DNA of 36,313 nucleotides, taken from an uncultured Clostridia bacterium (GTDB lineage Bacteria > Bacillota > Clostridia > Oscillospirales > CAG-272). The DNA lies in assembly GCA_944384515.1 (NCBI GenBank), contig CALWTU010000011.1, positions 1 through 36,313 of the forward strand, written 5' to 3'. A program made the translations under genes and the position numbers. Below, in pieces: positions 5,207 through 13,845 of this stretch. The notes beneath the pieces were generated by a model. It did not search any database. It saw only the letters and a program-made list of their open reading frames with translations, and had not been told where the DNA came from. The first letter of the stretch is position 1; every line of letters starts with the position of its first letter.

Positions 5207-7195
5207 ATGAAAAACAGAGATGATTTTCTCCCCGTCAGCATGGAGGATGTAAAAAAGCGGGGATGGTCTGATATTGATTTTGTATATGTGTCGGGGGATG
5301 CATATGTTGACCACCCGAGCTTCGGTGCGGCAATAATTACCCGTGTCCTTGAGAGCCGCGGCTTCAGAGTTGCGGTTTTGGCACAGCCCGACTATAAGTC
5401 AACCAAGGATTTCATGCGCTTTGGCAGACCGAGACTCGGATTTCTTGTCAGCAGCGGAAATATTGATTCAATGGTTGCACATTATACCGTGTCGAAGAAA
5501 AGGCGTTCATATGACTATTACAGCCCCGGCGGAAAGATGGGTTACCGCCCTGACCGTGCGGTTATAGTATATAGCAACAGAATAAGAGAGGCGTACGGAG
5601 ACGTTCCTGTTATAATCGGAGGACTTGAGGCATCTTTGCGCCGTTTTGCCCATTACGACTATTGGGATGACAGGGTGCGCCGCAGTATTCTTGTTGATTC
5701 AAGGGCGGATATTCTTACATACGGCATGGGGGAGAACATTATTCTCAGAATAGCCACGCTTCTTGACCGCGGTATTCCGATTAAGAAAATCCGAGATGTC
5801 AGGGGAACGGTCTATCTTGCCAAAAAAGGAGAAAAAGTCAATTATGACTATATTGAAACGGCGGATTATGATGTTCTGAAAACGGATAAGGAGGCGTATG
5901 CAAAGGCATTTGCCGTTCAGTACAAAAACACCGATTCCGTAAGGGGTAAGGCTATACTTGAGTATTACGGCGATAAAGTGCTTGTGCAAAATCCGCCTAT
6001 GCCGCCGCTTGAGAGGGAAGAGCTTGATTTTGTTTACTCTCTGCCATATGTCAGGGACTATCACCCCGATTATGATGAGCTCGGCGGCGTCAGCGCAATT
6101 AACGAGGTTAAGTTCTCTTTGACGCATAACAGAGGCTGTTTCGGAGCATGCAACTTTTGTGCAATAGCGTTTCATCAGGGCAGAGAGGTGCGTTCAAGGA
6201 GCGAAGAGAGCGTTATAAAAGAGGCAAAGCTCTTGACCGAACTTCCCGATTTCAAGGGATATATCCATGATGTGGGCGGTCCCACCGCAAACTTCAGATA
6301 CCCCTCATGCGACAAACAGCGTGAGCAGGGCGTCTGCCCCGGCAGAAAATGCCTTTCACCCACCCCGTGTAAACACCTTAAGGTTGACCACAGCGAGTAT
6401 GCGCATCTTTTAAGGGAAATCGAGAAGATAGATAAGGTGAAGAAGGTGTTTGTCAGAAGCGGTATCAGATTTGATTACCTCATCTACGATAAAGACCCGT
6501 CATTCTTTAAACAGCTCGTTGAGCACCATGTTTCGGGGCAGCTTAAGGTTGCGCCTGAGCACATATCGCAGAATGCACTGATGATGATGGGCAAGCCGCC
6601 GGTTGAGGTTTATGAAAAATTCAGAGACAAATATTTTCATCTCTGCGAGAGGGCGGGCAAAGAGCAGTACCTTGTACCGTATCTTATGTCAAGCCACCCC
6701 GGCACGACGCTTGATGATGCGATAGAGATGGCGCTGTGGCTCAAAAAGTTCGGTTACTCGCCTGAGCAGGTGCAGGACTTTTACCCGACACCGGGAACAA
6801 TTTCGACGGTAATGTTTTATACCGGAATTCATCCGATGACGGGCAAAAAGATTTATGTTACAACCGACTATCACGAAAAGCAGCTGCAAAGAGCGCTTTT
6901 GCAATACTCAAAGCCCGAAAACCGAAATCTTGTCAGAGAGGCGCTGCACAAAGCCGGCAGAGACGACCTTATCGGCAATACAGAGGGCTGCCTTGTCAGA
7001 CCTGCTTTCGGTCAGGACAGGGACTCTTATCACAAAGTCAAGAGTTTTGAGCGAGAGGGTAAAAGAGGGGCAAAAAAGGCTCCGCACGGTCGCACCAATC
7101 AGTTTCAGCGGACAAACGGTAAAGGGAAAAGTGCAAAGAGCACAAATTCTTACAATTCAGTAACGAAAAAAGAAAAAAGCAACAAAAAAGCATAA
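5207..7195 (+). CDS. ygiQ: YgiQ family radical SAM protein
   Basis: A 662-residue member of the YgiQ family of radical SAM enzymes, whose reaction is unknown. The 4Fe-4S cluster motif is CFGACNFC (Cys311, Cys315, Cys318), preceded by a roughly 300-residue N-terminal domain with typical YgiQ stretches (GGLEASLRRFAHYDYWDD). After the cluster come GYIHDVGGPTANFR and a second Cys-rich stretch (CDKQREQGVCPGRKC), then VAPEH and LVPYLMSSHPG. The last 50 or so residues are Lys/Arg/Ser/Asn-rich and probably disordered. AAAGGTG precedes the ATG. It appears monocistronic, flanked by the hisS terminator and the DnaA-box-rich gap. Confidence 0.9.
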   Translation: MKNRDDFLPVSMEDVKKRGWSDIDFVYVSGDAYVDHPSFGAAIITRVLESRGFRVAVLAQPDYKSTKDFMRFGRPRLGFLVSSGNIDSMVAHYTVSKKRRSYDYYSPGGKMGYRPDRAVIVYSNRIREAYGDVPVIIGGLEASLRRFAHYDYWDDRVRRSILVDSRADILTYGMGENIILRIATLLDRGIPIKKIRDVRGTVYLAKKGEKVNYDYIETADYDVLKTDKEAYAKAFAVQYKNTDSVRGKAILEYYGDKVLVQNPPMPPLEREELDFVYSLPYVRDYHPDYDELGGVSAINEVKFSLTHNRGCFGACNFCAIAFHQGREVRSRSEESVIKEAKLLTELPDFKGYIHDVGGPTANFRYPSCDKQREQGVCPGRKCLSPTPCKHLKVDHSEYAHLLREIEKIDKVKKVFVRSGIRFDYLIYDKDPSFFKQLVEHHVSGQLKVAPEHISQNALMMMGKPPVEVYEKFRDKYFHLCERAGKEQYLVPYLMSSHPGTTLDDAIEMALWLKKFGYSPEQVQDFYPTPGTISTVMFYTGIHPMTGKKIYVTTDYHEKQLQRALLQYSKPENRNLVREALHKAGRDDLIGNTEGCLVRPAFGQDRDSYHKVKSFEREGKRGAKKAPHGRTNQFQRTNGKGKSAKSTNSYNSVTKKEKSNKKA

Positions 7196-7267: not shown

Positions 7268-7471
7268 TGTGTAAAAAAGTGGTAAAACCGCTGAAAAATC
7301 TCGGTATAACGGAAAAATACATTTTTTAAATTCAGAGGTTTTCCACACCGTAAAATGTTGATAATGTGGAAAAGCTGTGGAGTTTTTTTGGTGGTAACCT
7401 GAATTCAACAGAAAATAACCCTTTTCAACAGTGGAGTTTTCCACAATATCAACATTACTGGATGTGGAAAA
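7268..7471. promoter_or_regulatory. Cluster of DnaA-box-like sequences in two mirror-image modules
   Basis: Exact TTTTCCACA nonamers occur at 7339-7347 (plus), 7365-7373 (minus), 7437-7445 (plus) and 7463-7471 (minus). Both plus/minus pairs have a 17-base spacer. In module 1, read on the minus strand, TTTTCCACA is directly followed by TTATCAACA; in module 2, read on the plus strand, it is directly followed by ATATCAACA. In each case 8 bases then lead to TGTGGAAAA, so the modules are inverted copies. Related nonamers are TTTTCAACA at 7422-7430, AATTCAACA at 7402-7410 and TTTTACACA on the minus strand at 7268-7276. The bacterial DnaA box consensus is TTATNCACA. No dnaA or dnaN gene is nearby. 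The rest of the 451-base gap is AT-rich with no credible ORF. Confidence 0.6.
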
Positions 7472-7498: not shown

Positions 7499-7528
7499 TT
7501 GACAAATAGGAAATTGTGAAATTACAGT
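7499..7528 (+). promoter_or_regulatory. Candidate pcrA promoter
   Basis: A perfect TTGACA at 7499-7504 is followed after 18 bases by TACAGT (7523-7528). The last DnaA-like nonamer ends 27 bases upstream of the -35 box, so bound protein could contact RNA polymerase. The leader to pcrA would be about 110 bases. Confidence 0.5.
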
Positions 7529-7646: not shown

Positions 7647-10064
7647 ATGCAACAGCTTGAAAAACGCTATATTAAGGCAAAACAAAGGCTCTTTGATAAA
7701 ATATATGAAGCAAAACTTAACAGGCAGCAGTGTGAGGCGGTTTTCACTGTGAAAGGACCTCTTTTGGTTTTGGCGGGAGCCGGCAGCGGAAAGACGACTG
7801 TTCTTGTAAACAGGATTGCTTACCTTATAAAATACGGCAACGCATATTATTCCGATGTAATCTCGGAGGAACTCAGCGAGGAGACTGTGTCGGCGCTCGA
7901 GGAGGCGGTAAATTTATCTGAGGAAGAGATAAATCAGATTTTACCGAGCTTTATCTGTGATACCTGCATGCCGTACAATATTCTTGCGATAACATTTACA
8001 AACAAAGCGGCAAATGAGATAAAAGAGAGAATTGAAAAGACATTTTCTGATGATAATCTTTCAGTCTCCTCCGTAAATGCAGGCACATTTCACTCGATCT
8101 GCATGAGGATATTGCGCAAGTTTTATGACAGGCTGGGCTATGCGCCGTCGATGTCGATATACGATACTGATGACAAAAAGCGGCTTATCTCTGTTTGTAT
8201 GAAGGAGCTCGGAATTGATGAGAAGAATCTGCCCGCGCGCAGCGTGTGCAACGAAATAAGCATTGCAAAGGACAAACTTATAGGTTGCGACGAGTATTCA
8301 AAACCGACCGACCCGAGAGAAGAGCGTATCCGGAGTATATATAAGCTGTATGAGAAAAAGCTCAGGGAGTACAACGCCGTTGACTTTGACGATATAATTA
8401 TGAAAACGGTAAAGCTGCTTTCGGAAAATGAGGATGTTTTAAAGTATTATCAAAACAAATTCAAATATATTCTTGTAGATGAGTATCAGGATACGAACTA
8501 TGCTCAGTTTGAACTTGTAAATATGCTTGCCGGGGGCACAAAAAACATAATGGTTGTGGGAGACGATGACCAGAGTATTTATGCCTTCAGAGGTGCGACG
8601 GTAGAAAATATTTTGGGCTTTGACAAGACATACCCAGACGCAAAGGTGATAAAGCTTGAGCAGAACTACCGCTCGACCGAAAACATACTGAATGCCGCAA
8701 ATGCTCTGATACATAATAACACCGACAGACATGAAAAAACACTCTGGTCCGACAAGGGTGAGGGAGAGAAGATAAACCTCAAGGAAGTTGATGATCAGTT
8801 CTGCGAAGGAAAGTATATAATTGAGAAAATTTCACACGGTGTCAGGGTAGACGGCAGAAAGTATTCGGATTTTGCCGTGCTTTACAGAGTGAACGAGATG
8901 TCGAGATCGCTTGAGACAGCCTTTGCAAAGAGCGGAATACCGTATAAAATTTTAGGCTCGATGAGGTTCTATGACCGCAAGGAAATAAAGGATATCGTCT
9001 CATATCTCACTTTGCTTGTCTCTCCGACAGACAATTTAAGGCTTAAAAGGATAATCAATGAGCCCAAGCGCAAAATAGGCGCGAGTACGGTTGAGGCAAT
9101 AGAGCAGCTCGCAGAGGAAAACGGCACTTCAATGTACGAGATAATCTCGAGGGCGGATAAATATACCATTTTGGCAAAGAGCAAGGATAAGCTGTGCGAT
9201 TTCTGCAATATGATGGAAAGTATTAAGGCGTCCGCCACTCTGCCGTCAGAACTGCTCAATGCGATTTTCATAAAGACAGGTTATTACGATATGCTCAAGG
9301 CAGAGGGCTTTGAGGGTGAGGGCAAGATCTCGAACATAAAAGAGTTTATTTCAGCCGCCATTGAATATGAAAAAAGATGCGAGATCAGCGGCAGTGAGAT
9401 AACACTTGTCGGATTTCTTGAGGAGATTAGCCTTGTCAGCGATGTCGACAAATATGACGGCGAGGCTGATTCGGTTGTCCTTATGACTATACATTCCGCC
9501 AAGGGACTTGAGTTTCCCGTTGTATTTTTGGCGGGTATGGAAGACGGAATATTCCCGTCTGTTCAAAATCTCTTTGATCCCGCGGCGATGAGCGAAGAGC
9601 GCAGGCTTGCGTATGTTGCAATAACAAGAGCAAAGGAAAAACTTTATATTACCCACTCAAAGCAGAGAACAATGTACGGAAAAACAGAGCGCAATCCGCT
9701 CTCTGTATTTATAAAAGAGATACCGGATAATCTCTTCAGTCATGAGTCTGAGCGGAAAATTCCGCCACGGCAAAAGAGCGACTATCAGACAAGACCTGTA
9801 AGGCAGGTTCGTGAAAAGGTGTCGGATGAGTTTACCCGCTCCCCCGAAATATCTACGGCAAACCGCGGCAGGCGCGGCGCCGCAGATTATGGTATAACCA
9901 AGTTTTCCGTTGGACAGAGGGTGCTGCATTCCTCTTTCGGCGAGGGCGTTGTCCTCTCCGCCAAGGATTTGGGCGGAGATGTACTTTATGAGGTTAAATT
10001 TAACACGGGTGTTACCAAAAAACTTATGGCGACCTTTGCAAAACTAAAGCCGGTAAGGGGATAG
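7647..10064 (+). CDS. pcrA: PcrA/UvrD-type ATP-dependent DNA helicase
   Basis: An 805-residue superfamily 1A 3'-5' helicase used in repair and in clearing replication-transcription conflicts. Motifs run in order: Q motif LNRQQCEAV, Walker A GAGSGKTT (Lys49), ITFTNKAA, Walker B VDEYQDT, GDDDQSIYAFRGA, LEQNYRST, TIHSAKGLEF and YVAITRAKEKLYI. The C-terminus (about 750-805) has the Tudor-like fold region of PcrA, VGQRVLHSSFGEGVVL, which in PcrA contacts RNA polymerase. Roughly 45 extra acidic residues lie between Walker A and motif Ia (about residues 58-105). AGAGGT precedes the ATG. The DnaA-box cluster sits upstream. Confidence 0.93.
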   Translation: MQQLEKRYIKAKQRLFDKIYEAKLNRQQCEAVFTVKGPLLVLAGAGSGKTTVLVNRIAYLIKYGNAYYSDVISEELSEETVSALEEAVNLSEEEINQILPSFICDTCMPYNILAITFTNKAANEIKERIEKTFSDDNLSVSSVNAGTFHSICMRILRKFYDRLGYAPSMSIYDTDDKKRLISVCMKELGIDEKNLPARSVCNEISIAKDKLIGCDEYSKPTDPREERIRSIYKLYEKKLREYNAVDFDDIIMKTVKLLSENEDVLKYYQNKFKYILVDEYQDTNYAQFELVNMLAGGTKNIMVVGDDDQSIYAFRGATVENILGFDKTYPDAKVIKLEQNYRSTENILNAANALIHNNTDRHEKTLWSDKGEGEKINLKEVDDQFCEGKYIIEKISHGVRVDGRKYSDFAVLYRVNEMSRSLETAFAKSGIPYKILGSMRFYDRKEIKDIVSYLTLLVSPTDNLRLKRIINEPKRKIGASTVEAIEQLAEENGTSMYEIISRADKYTILAKSKDKLCDFCNMMESIKASATLPSELLNAIFIKTGYYDMLKAEGFEGEGKISNIKEFISAAIEYEKRCEISGSEITLVGFLEEISLVSDVDKYDGEADSVVLMTIHSAKGLEFPVVFLAGMEDGIFPSVQNLFDPAAMSEERRLAYVAITRAKEKLYITHSKQRTMYGKTERNPLSVFIKEIPDNLFSHESERKIPPRQKSDYQTRPVRQVREKVSDEFTRSPEISTANRGRRGAADYGITKFSVGQRVLHSSFGEGVVLSAKDLGGDVLYEVKFNTGVTKKLMATFAKLKPVRG

Positions 10065-11508: not shown

Positions 11509-13845
11509 ATGCGTAAAACCTTATATCTGTTTTTTTTAATTTTTACACTCTTTGCTCTTTCTTCATGTAAAGATGTTGTCCCAACGCCGAAGGACGACCA
11601 ATCCTATACGGTCATGCTCGGATGTGACAGCGGAGTGAAGGTTGACGGTACTAACCCCGTCAAAGTAAAGAGCGGCGAGACTGCAAGTTTTAAACTTGTT
11701 CTTGAATCAGGATATGTTTTCAAATCGTCCGACGGCGGAGTTTATGACTACAAGACGGGCGTGCTCACTGTTGAGAATGTCACTGAAAAAATGTACATAA
11801 AGGTAAAGAGCGAGTTTTTGGGATATGACACAACCGAGGAGGTTGCGTTTATTTTCAGAGGCGAGGCTAACGACACCACAAGTATAGCACCGGGACCCAA
11901 TATCAAGCAGGGCACCGAGGTGACGGTAAAGTCGAATACATATAACAGAATTTTCTCAGGCTGGTCTGTCGGCGGCAGTTTGTCAAACGGCGGAATACTG
12001 CTTTCAAAAGACAGAGAGTTCACATTCAGAATTTCCCCTGATATTGTTAAAAACGGCACGCTGTACATTTATGCCAACTATAAAGATTCCAATGTATTCT
12101 ACTATGACGCAAACGGCGGAACAATAAACGGCGGATCAATCAATCTTAAGGAAAATCAGTATTATACATCCGAGATAAACGGAAACAAAATTAAGATAAC
12201 AATGGGCGAGAAGCTGTTCAGCTTTGCAGAGTGTCCGTATTCTTTCTGGGATGACGGAACATTTACAAGAGAGGGATATGTGCTCATTGAGTATAACACC
12301 AAACCTGACGGTTCGGGAGAGTCGTACGGACTCGGTTCACAGTTTTTTACAGTCGGGGATGACGACTATGTAACTCTTTACTGTATCTGGGCTGAGAACA
12401 CCAATAAGGACAGCTTTACCGTTGAGAATTTTGAGTATAAAAGACCATCTGCCGTTTTTGAGCAGAATGCACTCAACTGGCATGAGAGTGGCGTTATCAT
12501 TACAAAGTATAACGGAAATGAAGATGTGGTTGTTATACCTGAGACGATACAGGGCAAGCCCGTAATTGCCATAGGAGCGGGGGCGTTCTCGGACCTTACG
12601 ACAAAGAAGGTTATCTTCTCGAAAAATCTTCTTCTTGTAGAGGACGGCGCATTTACAAACTGTCAGTATCTTGAGACGATTTACTTCTCCGACGGTATCT
12701 ATCAGATGAACAACGAGGCTCTGGATGAGCTCTCATATAAAAACTTCAAACATCTCTATGTAAATGCAACCATTGCTCCGAGATTTATCAACAAAGGTGA
12801 CGGAGCGTTCGGCGTAAAACTCTCAAGGCTTCTTGCATCATATAACGAGAACAGAGTGATAGTAGTTTCGGGCTCATCCTCGTATGAGGGACTGAGTACG
12901 ACATATCTTGAAGCACTGCTTGAAGGTTATACTGTCATTAACTTCGGCACCACGAGAACTACACATGCGCTGATATATCTTGAGGCAATGCGTGAGCTTG
13001 CCCACGAGGGAGATATTATAGTTTACGCACCCGAGAACTCTTCATACCTCTTTGGCGAGCCGGAGCTTTACTGGAAGACACTGCGTGACCTTGAGGGAAT
13101 GTACAATATGTACAGACTCATAGATATTTCGGGATACACCAATGTATTCGGCGCGTTTACTGAGCTTAATCAGCAGTATAAGTATCTTAGAGCGCCTACC
13201 CGCTACGAAAATATCTGCGAGAAGTCAAATACCGACAAATACGGCGACCAACAGAACTCCAAAAGGCAGGATTATAACGATATCACAAAATATACAGACG
13301 CATACTATATAACACTCAACGAAAGAGTGAAGTCTAAGTTTGAGGGTGAGTGGAACGACGAGGAAGATCAGGAGGCAAACAAGGACTACAAGGATCCGAA
13401 TAATACTACATGGTGCAGTATAACAGACACAAAGTATACAACACTGATGAACCACGCAATAGATGCGGCAAAGACATCGGGAGCCAAAGTTTATTTCGGC
13501 TTCAGCCCTGTAGACGCACAGTCGATAGTTGACGAGGCGAAGAACGCCGAGTGGCTTATGGCATATGACAAGCTGATTGCGGATACATATAATTTTGACG
13601 GAGTTTTGGGTTCGTGCGCGGGACACATATTTGACAGAAAATATTTCTATGACTGTGCATTCCATCCCAACGATTACGGCAGAACATATCATACATACCG
13701 ACTCTATCTCGACTTGACAGAGGTGATTGAAACGGAGAGAGTCAAGGGCATATATGATGAGGGCGTCGACTTTAACGGATGCCTGTTTGAACAGGGCAGT
13801 GACGGAACACCTAATACCAATGTAGACTTTTTGAAAGGCAGATAA
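11509..13845 (+). CDS. Lipoprotein with InlB-like repeat, leucine-rich repeats and C-terminal SGNH-like domain
   Basis: A 778-residue predicted lipoprotein. The signal peptide ends in the lipobox LSSC (Cys20). Two beta-rich segments follow, the second (about 197-299) matching InlB/Listeria-Bacteroides repeats (YDANGG start, YCIWAEN end). BspA-type leucine-rich repeats lie at about 338-418 (AIGAGAFSDL, VEDGAFTNC). From about 445 there is an SGNH hydrolase-like domain: SGSSSYEG with candidate nucleophile Ser456 or 457, then EGDIIVYAPE, and the terminal DCAFH motif (Asp715, His719). SGNH proteins paired with MBOAT proteins usually transfer acyl groups to extracellular polymers (AlgX/AlgJ, DltD). 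The C-terminal domain is clearly related to that of the gene at 15607. It is first in the operon, four bases before the next gene. Confidence 0.8.
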   Translation: MRKTLYLFFLIFTLFALSSCKDVVPTPKDDQSYTVMLGCDSGVKVDGTNPVKVKSGETASFKLVLESGYVFKSSDGGVYDYKTGVLTVENVTEKMYIKVKSEFLGYDTTEEVAFIFRGEANDTTSIAPGPNIKQGTEVTVKSNTYNRIFSGWSVGGSLSNGGILLSKDREFTFRISPDIVKNGTLYIYANYKDSNVFYYDANGGTINGGSINLKENQYYTSEINGNKIKITMGEKLFSFAECPYSFWDDGTFTREGYVLIEYNTKPDGSGESYGLGSQFFTVGDDDYVTLYCIWAENTNKDSFTVENFEYKRPSAVFEQNALNWHESGVIITKYNGNEDVVVIPETIQGKPVIAIGAGAFSDLTTKKVIFSKNLLLVEDGAFTNCQYLETIYFSDGIYQMNNEALDELSYKNFKHLYVNATIAPRFINKGDGAFGVKLSRLLASYNENRVIVVSGSSSYEGLSTTYLEALLEGYTVINFGTTRTTHALIYLEAMRELAHEGDIIVYAPENSSYLFGEPELYWKTLRDLEGMYNMYRLIDISGYTNVFGAFTELNQQYKYLRAPTRYENICEKSNTDKYGDQQNSKRQDYNDITKYTDAYYITLNERVKSKFEGEWNDEEDQEANKDYKDPNNTTWCSITDTKYTTLMNHAIDAAKTSGAKVYFGFSPVDAQSIVDEAKNAEWLMAYDKLIADTYNFDGVLGSCAGHIFDRKYFYDCAFHPNDYGRTYHTYRLYLDLTEVIETERVKGIYDEGVDFNGCLFEQGSDGTPNTNVDFLKGR

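Follow-up and report, generated by a model that had tools for sequence, protein, structure and literature searches.

A cluster of DnaA-box-like sequences, arranged as two mirror-image modules of three boxes each, occupied the non-coding gap between the ygiQ and pcrA genes of an uncultured Clostridia bacterium, and the same geometry was conserved in many genomes of its genus. DnaA is the protein that starts chromosome copying, and on balance the cluster is probably a non-coding DnaA-binding locus outside the origin, acting mainly on DnaA availability or activity. This reading builds on the box spelling shared with the dnaA-dnaN gap of the same genome, the conserved geometry, the independence of the cluster from the gene 3' of it, and the lack of an origin signature at the cluster in a relative. 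The window analyzed here is the whole of contig C11 (36,313 bp), which belongs to a 1.93-Mb draft genome (129 contigs, completeness 85%). To our knowledge, only a few model bacteria have had their extra-origin DnaA-box clusters studied well. Because the present cluster retains a strict layout in dozens of gut Clostridia although the gene behind it varies, it offers a natural series for asking whether clusters of this kind hold DnaA, change its activity or steer promoters.

A sequence scan of the 36,313-bp window located the exact nonamer TTTTCCACA only at 7339-7347 (+), 7365-7373 (-), 7437-7445 (+) and 7463-7471 (-). The count of four compared with a mean of 0.48 in 100 shuffles, none of which reached four (0/100). 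Both facing pairs left a gap of 17 bp between boxes, and the pattern TTTTCCACA-N17-TGTGGAAAA was found at only two places in the 1.93-Mb draft genome, which were the two modules of the window. Over the whole draft genome, TTTTCCACA occurred 63 times, against 28 for the pattern read backwards. The first module (7339-7373, (-) strand) combined the first two TTTTCCACA boxes with TTATCAACA at 7356-7364 (-), and the second (7437-7471, (+) strand) combined the last two with ATATCAACA at 7446-7454 (+). TTATCAACA and ATATCAACA each abutted one box, leaving an 8-bp gap, and each module thus measured 35 bp: a box, an abutting box in the same direction, the 8-bp gap and a facing box. Once module 2 is reverse-complemented, its AATGTTGATA core has the offset found in module 1, and the modules scored as an inverted repeat of 36 nt, 83% complementary, with 63 nt between the arms. 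Three related nonamers accompanied them, two being read directly from the sequence, namely a weak outlying box, TTTTACACA, at 7268-7276 (-) and AATTCAACA at 7402-7410 (+), and the third being the TTTTCAACA box at 7422-7430 (+), where many relatives displayed TTTTTCGACA or a similar sequence at the same place. Coordinates and shuffles therefore bore out the layout described in the first-pass annotation, with its four exact nonamers in two inverted pairs of equal 17-base spacing, its abutting nonamer and 8-base gap in each pair, its mirrored second module with a common core offset and its three further nonamers.

The 5' neighbor of the cluster was ygiQ (5207-7195, +), encoding a YgiQ family radical SAM protein (NCBIfam TIGR03904 at 846.7 bits, over the cut-off, and Pfam), and its 3' neighbor, as in the rest of the window's subclade, was pcrA (7647-10064, +), encoding a PcrA/UvrD-type helicase. 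The best NCBIfam match of the latter was pcrA at 809.8 bits, below the model cut-off of 911.2, and its Pfam UvrD domains scored over their cut-offs. The best named PcrA relatives came from Clostridia metagenome assemblies from ruminant guts. A promoter-like TTGACA-18-TACAGT stretch was present at 7499-7528 (+), its TTGACA (7499-7504) standing 27 bases past the last box. Of the pcrA promoter proposed by the first-pass annotation, the motif and its distance were confirmed, whereas the promoter scan of the region stayed at chance level (2 sites versus 1.7 in shuffles). No terminator-like site was found in a scan of the region. An RNA element was dismissed, as the sole Rfam match was at chance level (a microRNA family, E 0.096, 22.5 bits versus a gathering score of 69). 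Elsewhere in the window, a 2243-codon open frame near the right contig end (29295-36026) gave no Pfam match at E 0.001, and a 778-codon frame (11509-13845) gave a weak BspA-type leucine-rich-repeat match at the family cut-off.

DnaA is the likely binder of the cluster boxes, because the same nonamer was found in the dnaA-dnaN gap of the window's genome. This gap, on contig C81, where dnaA itself is truncated by the end of the contig, held six exact TTTTCCACA (at 1439, 1455, 1471, 1495, 1541 and 1637), and exact TTWTCMACA boxes numbered six at the cluster and six in the gap. The likeness to origin-type DnaA sites was thereby supported: the genome's own dnaA-dnaN gap had the same spelling as the cluster and not a different one, and close relatives kept the boxes. 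Boxes of the genome's oriC spelling, several of them within non-coding DNA at a distance from dnaA, are one feature that the locus shares with extra-oriC clusters of the Bacillus subtilis kind. A third group of four TTTTCCACA was observed in the same genome on contig C93 (L004 10026-10195), 3' of an FtsZ-like gene, recognized by eye, which we take to be ftsZ.

Across the genus, boxes were spelled TTTTCCACA or TTTTCAACA both at the cluster and in the dnaA-dnaN gap. The spelling at the two places was correlated (rho 0.68 in the 28 genomes that have two or more boxes at each), and with phylogenetic contrasts on the DnaA tree the correlation was r 0.20 (27 contrasts), a value equaled or exceeded in 3096 of 20000 contrast permutations. 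By sign, 12 contrasts were the same, 6 opposite and 9 zero, too few independent pairs for a test, and the co-variation between cluster and oriC gives weak support for DnaA. The DnaA recognition-helix motifs of the genus were DHTT, DHST, DHAT, DYST, NHST and NHAT (L003 1380-1775; dnaA-dnaN gaps of 58 genomes), and in the same 58 genomes the box spelling drifted between TTTTCCACA and TTTTCAACA. At both places, the six DHTT genomes had mostly CCACA boxes and the four DHAT/NHAT genomes mostly CAACA boxes (6 versus 4 genomes; without tree correction, p 0.003 for dnaA-dnaN and p 0.004 for the cluster). When all dnaA-dnaN gaps that hold boxes were taken (14 genomes with T versus 13 with A at the residue), the trend weakened (p 0.012), with G400 among the former and G434, G441, G443, G445, G448 and G450 among the latter going against it. 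The clade pairs altered DnaA recognition helices with drifting box spellings.

That the boxes bind another protein favoring the same sequence appears quite unlikely. The boxes of relatives often read CAACA, or CGACA in the block before module 2, in place of the classical DnaA box, and the tree-corrected co-variation with oriC is weak, both of which would suit such a protein. However, CAACA boxes also filled the dnaA-dnaN gaps of the same genomes, the spelling in the window was that of its own dnaA-dnaN gap, and TT(T/A)TCAACA has been proposed as a mollicute DnaA-box motif in a passage of a paper that also doubts its full coverage (PMC3322544).

The two-module geometry was widespread in the genus. 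The sample comprised 69 genomes (PcrA at a strict cut-off in 60, dnaN in 65); in these 60 genomes the box scan covered at most 700 bp 5' of pcrA, and the stretch 3' of ygiQ was examined in 17 genomes with ygiQ and pcrA apart or pcrA not found, plus G327, while G403 was rescanned 5' of pcrA. The geometry test took one region per genome in 61 genomes. It required, with one mismatch allowed per box, two facing boxes at a spacing of 24-27 bp and another box standing 80-125 bp ahead of the facing box; in eight genomes the region 3' of ygiQ was used, chosen since boxes had already been seen there. The geometry was found in 38 of the 61 genomes and in part in three (G415, G426, G438), and in none of 1240 mononucleotide-shuffled regions. 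The examined regions of the other 20 genomes contained no cluster, so that the cluster is dispensable or moves.

Spacing within these 38 genomes fell into narrow classes. The two facing boxes had a spacing of 26 bp in 31 genomes and of 25 bp in 7, with a tandem box at +9 in 30. Distances between modules were 86-88 in 8 genomes and 96-99 in 25, the others being 105, 107, 108, 120 and 120, and no distance fell at 89-95 or 100-104. The distance in the window was 107 via the inner box (the choice of the script) and 98 via the outer boxes. Only four changes of distance class were obtained on the tree, for which the alternative pairing of 98 was set by hand for G000 and G433 and G422 was left out; the distance classes may hint at a helical phasing of the modules. 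Within the subclade with PcrA at least 59% identical to that of the window, the layout was present in 33 of 35 genomes (not in G408, and only partly in G415). Box geometry before pcrA, which the first-pass annotation had proposed to compare, was therefore kept in close relatives, boxes and two-module layout alike. Of the named PcrA relatives, 80 in number, two or more boxes within 900 bp were found only in the four nearest, some loci being shorter than 900 bp.

The sequence around the modules was also partly conserved. Before module 1, the block ACGGAAAAATACATTTTTT (7309-7327, +) was conserved as ACGGAAAA in the pcrA subclade, and in 19 of the 32 anchored sequences of this subclade (31 genomes and G327) the last facing box was preceded, at 153-157 bp, by the related ACGGAAAAG. 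CGGAAAAG was almost absent from dnaA-dnaN gaps (1 of 58). In the sister genomes examined, a TTGTGCAAAT-GCACA-like palindrome was seen by eye at a place similar to that of the ACGGAAAAG block, and all seven of these genomes displayed, also by eye, a TTGACA after the cluster.

Promoter control is the main rival to an effect on DnaA availability or activity. The cluster would then be mainly an operator, at which DnaA, or its ATP form, represses or activates the pcrA promoter and links helicase supply to replication, a possibility that we take seriously while holding it for the less probable one. In the 32 anchored sequences (31 genomes), a distance of 166-240 bp separated the cluster from the start of pcrA 3' of it, ygiQ, cluster and pcrA were linked in 33 of the 35 subclade genomes, and a promoter-like TTGACA follows the cluster, as it often did where the cluster was seen, which fits local control as well. 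In addition, some DnaA-box clusters of Bacillus subtilis control promoters, according to the sections of PMC4447404 that treat them. Against an operator stand the chance level of the promoter scan and five sister genomes (G180, G299, G405, G407, G420) in which the same cluster stood 3' of ygiQ before other genes, while their pcrA had no exact box. As identified by Pfam, the gene after the cluster was nrdR in G180 and a ThiF-family gene in G299, G407 and G420, and in G405 a NUDIX gene was followed by a ThiF-family gene. A pcrA-specific operator, with the cluster only before pcrA, is not what these five genomes display.

Genomes with more distant PcrA (53-58% identity) pointed in the same direction, as 24 of 25 had no exact box in the 700 bp 5' of pcrA (440 bp in G445); G360, of this group, had a single stray box there. 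The cluster was not a constant companion of ygiQ: no box was found in the stretch read 3' of this gene in G217, G284, G340, G403, G408, G410, G417 and G434, and the short stretches available had none in G448 and one in G394. In G403, where ygiQ and pcrA were apart and a histidyl-tRNA-synthetase-like gene preceded pcrA, a decayed cluster remained before pcrA. A keyword search found no literature joining a DnaA box with ygiQ. The tie to pcrA that had been proposed for the cluster is weakened by its persistence 3' of ygiQ with other genes behind it and by the distant-PcrA genomes without boxes. Since it was kept in many relatives although the next gene differs, the cluster probably has its effect on DnaA and is not just a switch of the adjacent helicase gene.

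An alternative or second replication origin, which the first-pass annotation had also considered, is highly improbable. The number of exact boxes does match that of the dnaA-dnaN gap (six and six). However, on the dnaN contig of the relative G352 (140 of 177 kb) the cumulative GC-skew minimum was at dnaA-dnaN, while on its pcrA contig (260 of 262 kb) the curve dipped only slightly and locally at the cluster and was lowest at the contig end. In the window's genome, the cluster was on C11 and the dnaA and dnaN matches on the separate contig C81, in agreement with the earlier remark that replication initiation genes are far away. Exact facing pairs 25-26 bp apart were found in none of 57 dnaA-dnaN gaps (7 of 57 with one mismatch, the window's genome included) and in 33 of the 38 clusters, a set picked for that spacing. 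With such facing pairs missing from the dnaA-dnaN gaps, the cluster is no copy of oriC.

Under the preferred reading of a locus acting on DnaA, the two mirror-image modules, of three boxes each, would together take up about six DnaA molecules and cooperate in one nucleoprotein complex. This complex would hold part of the DnaA pool or change DnaA activity, and might in this way help to time initiation at dnaA-dnaN. We infer titration, or some other action on DnaA, to be the best fit; the promoter-like stretch immediately 3' of the cluster might be affected as well, as a secondary matter.

Related modules occurred at other loci. In the family, the strict single-module pattern was found in 25 of 395 genomes and 6 of 71 genera, and the reversed control of this pattern in none of the 395 genomes. 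The places of the pattern outside the ygiQ locus included tsaD in four genomes of genus g7 (Pfam for two), gyrB-gyrA in three genomes of g30 (Pfam for one) and parA-parB in G267 and G327 (Pfam for both). Module-like boxes stood beside tsaD in G656 as well, a mirror pair of modules lay 3' of a YifB-like gene in G340, and another mirror pair was present in G217. In other families, yabQ or divIC was flanked by a related three-box unit whose facing boxes are separated by 23 bp (L322-L328, L330-L332; genes identified by Pfam for L324, L325, L331 and L332 and by eye for the others, neither gene being recognized in L326). The related 23-bp unit was also found before parB (L334) and beside tsaD (L338). 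DnaA-box groups were observed beside tsaD in L104-L107 and L338, and tsaD also flanks a strong B. subtilis DnaA site.

At the level of the phylum, at least 138 of 348 genomes had a facing TTWTCCACA pair 3-33 bp apart. Among 75 listed pairs, tallied by hand, the gap was 14 bp in 21, 3 bp in 13 and 17 bp in 6, and two of the six listed pairs with a 17-bp gap were the window's own. Facing boxes thus favored, among the matches listed, gaps of 3 and 14 bp, which are about one helix turn apart. Twenty places from the listed pairs were examined, with dnaA in the stretch at 6 and not at 14.

Among known systems, the DnaA-box clusters of B. subtilis share several traits with the cluster. Six of them lie outside oriC, and their deletion leads to early initiation, as summarized in the relevant part of a review (PMC13220808); the strongest in vitro DnaA sites listed in sections of PMC4447404 include the gap 3' of gcp (tsaD). 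Like the cluster, they group several DnaA boxes within non-coding DNA at a distance from dnaA, and the tsaD neighborhood is shared by the related modules of another genus of the family and of G656. The layout here is a fixed mirror of two modules, and the comparison with B. subtilis covers boxes and position. The B. subtilis clusters are also named oriC-proximal, whereas in the one draft relative G427 the contig reaches 206 kb on one side of dnaN and 288 kb on the other without pcrA, so that the cluster would probably not be near the origin there.

Escherichia coli offers other points of comparison. Its datA, which works with boxes around an IHF site according to passages of PMC4585315 and PMC5742627, is likewise a non-coding DnaA-box group outside oriC and itself acts on DnaA. 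Double DnaA boxes, for which joint binding is known in E. coli, resemble the neighboring same-direction boxes of the modules; 2 or 3 bp between boxes are preferred there, as reported in a part of PMC11317965, whereas the tandem boxes abut here. A likeness in dimensions was seen with DARS1 and DARS2 of E. coli MG1655. With up to two mismatches allowed per box, both carry two tandem boxes at a distance of 12 bp and, 26 bp from the first of these, a facing box. DARS releases ADP from DnaA, and DARS2 needs IHF and Fis. As in DARS, each module has a three-box core of 35 bp in all, in which box I points against II and III and the starts of the outer boxes are separated by 26 bp, and the three-box description agrees with the passage on DARS in PMC5742627. 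The middle box stands at +9 here and at +12 in DARS1 and DARS2, a 3-bp shift, so that the spacing is 0, 9, 26 instead of 0, 12, 26, and the module is present here in two mirrored copies.

A clostridial equivalent of the DARS core, exchanging or removing the DnaA nucleotide, is an unlikely reading of the module, though worth stating. In such a counterpart, DnaA on the two tandem boxes would face DnaA on the opposite box, the arrangement being doubled in mirror image. According to its passages on B. subtilis, the review cited above (PMC13220808) reports this species to be without datA, DARS1 and DARS2. A DARS-like module would thus be a DnaA-activity switch on DNA, in the 35-bp frame of E. coli, in a lineage for which the review reports none, and the DARS-like spacing is one specific idea that could be directly tested in vitro on a short DNA fragment.
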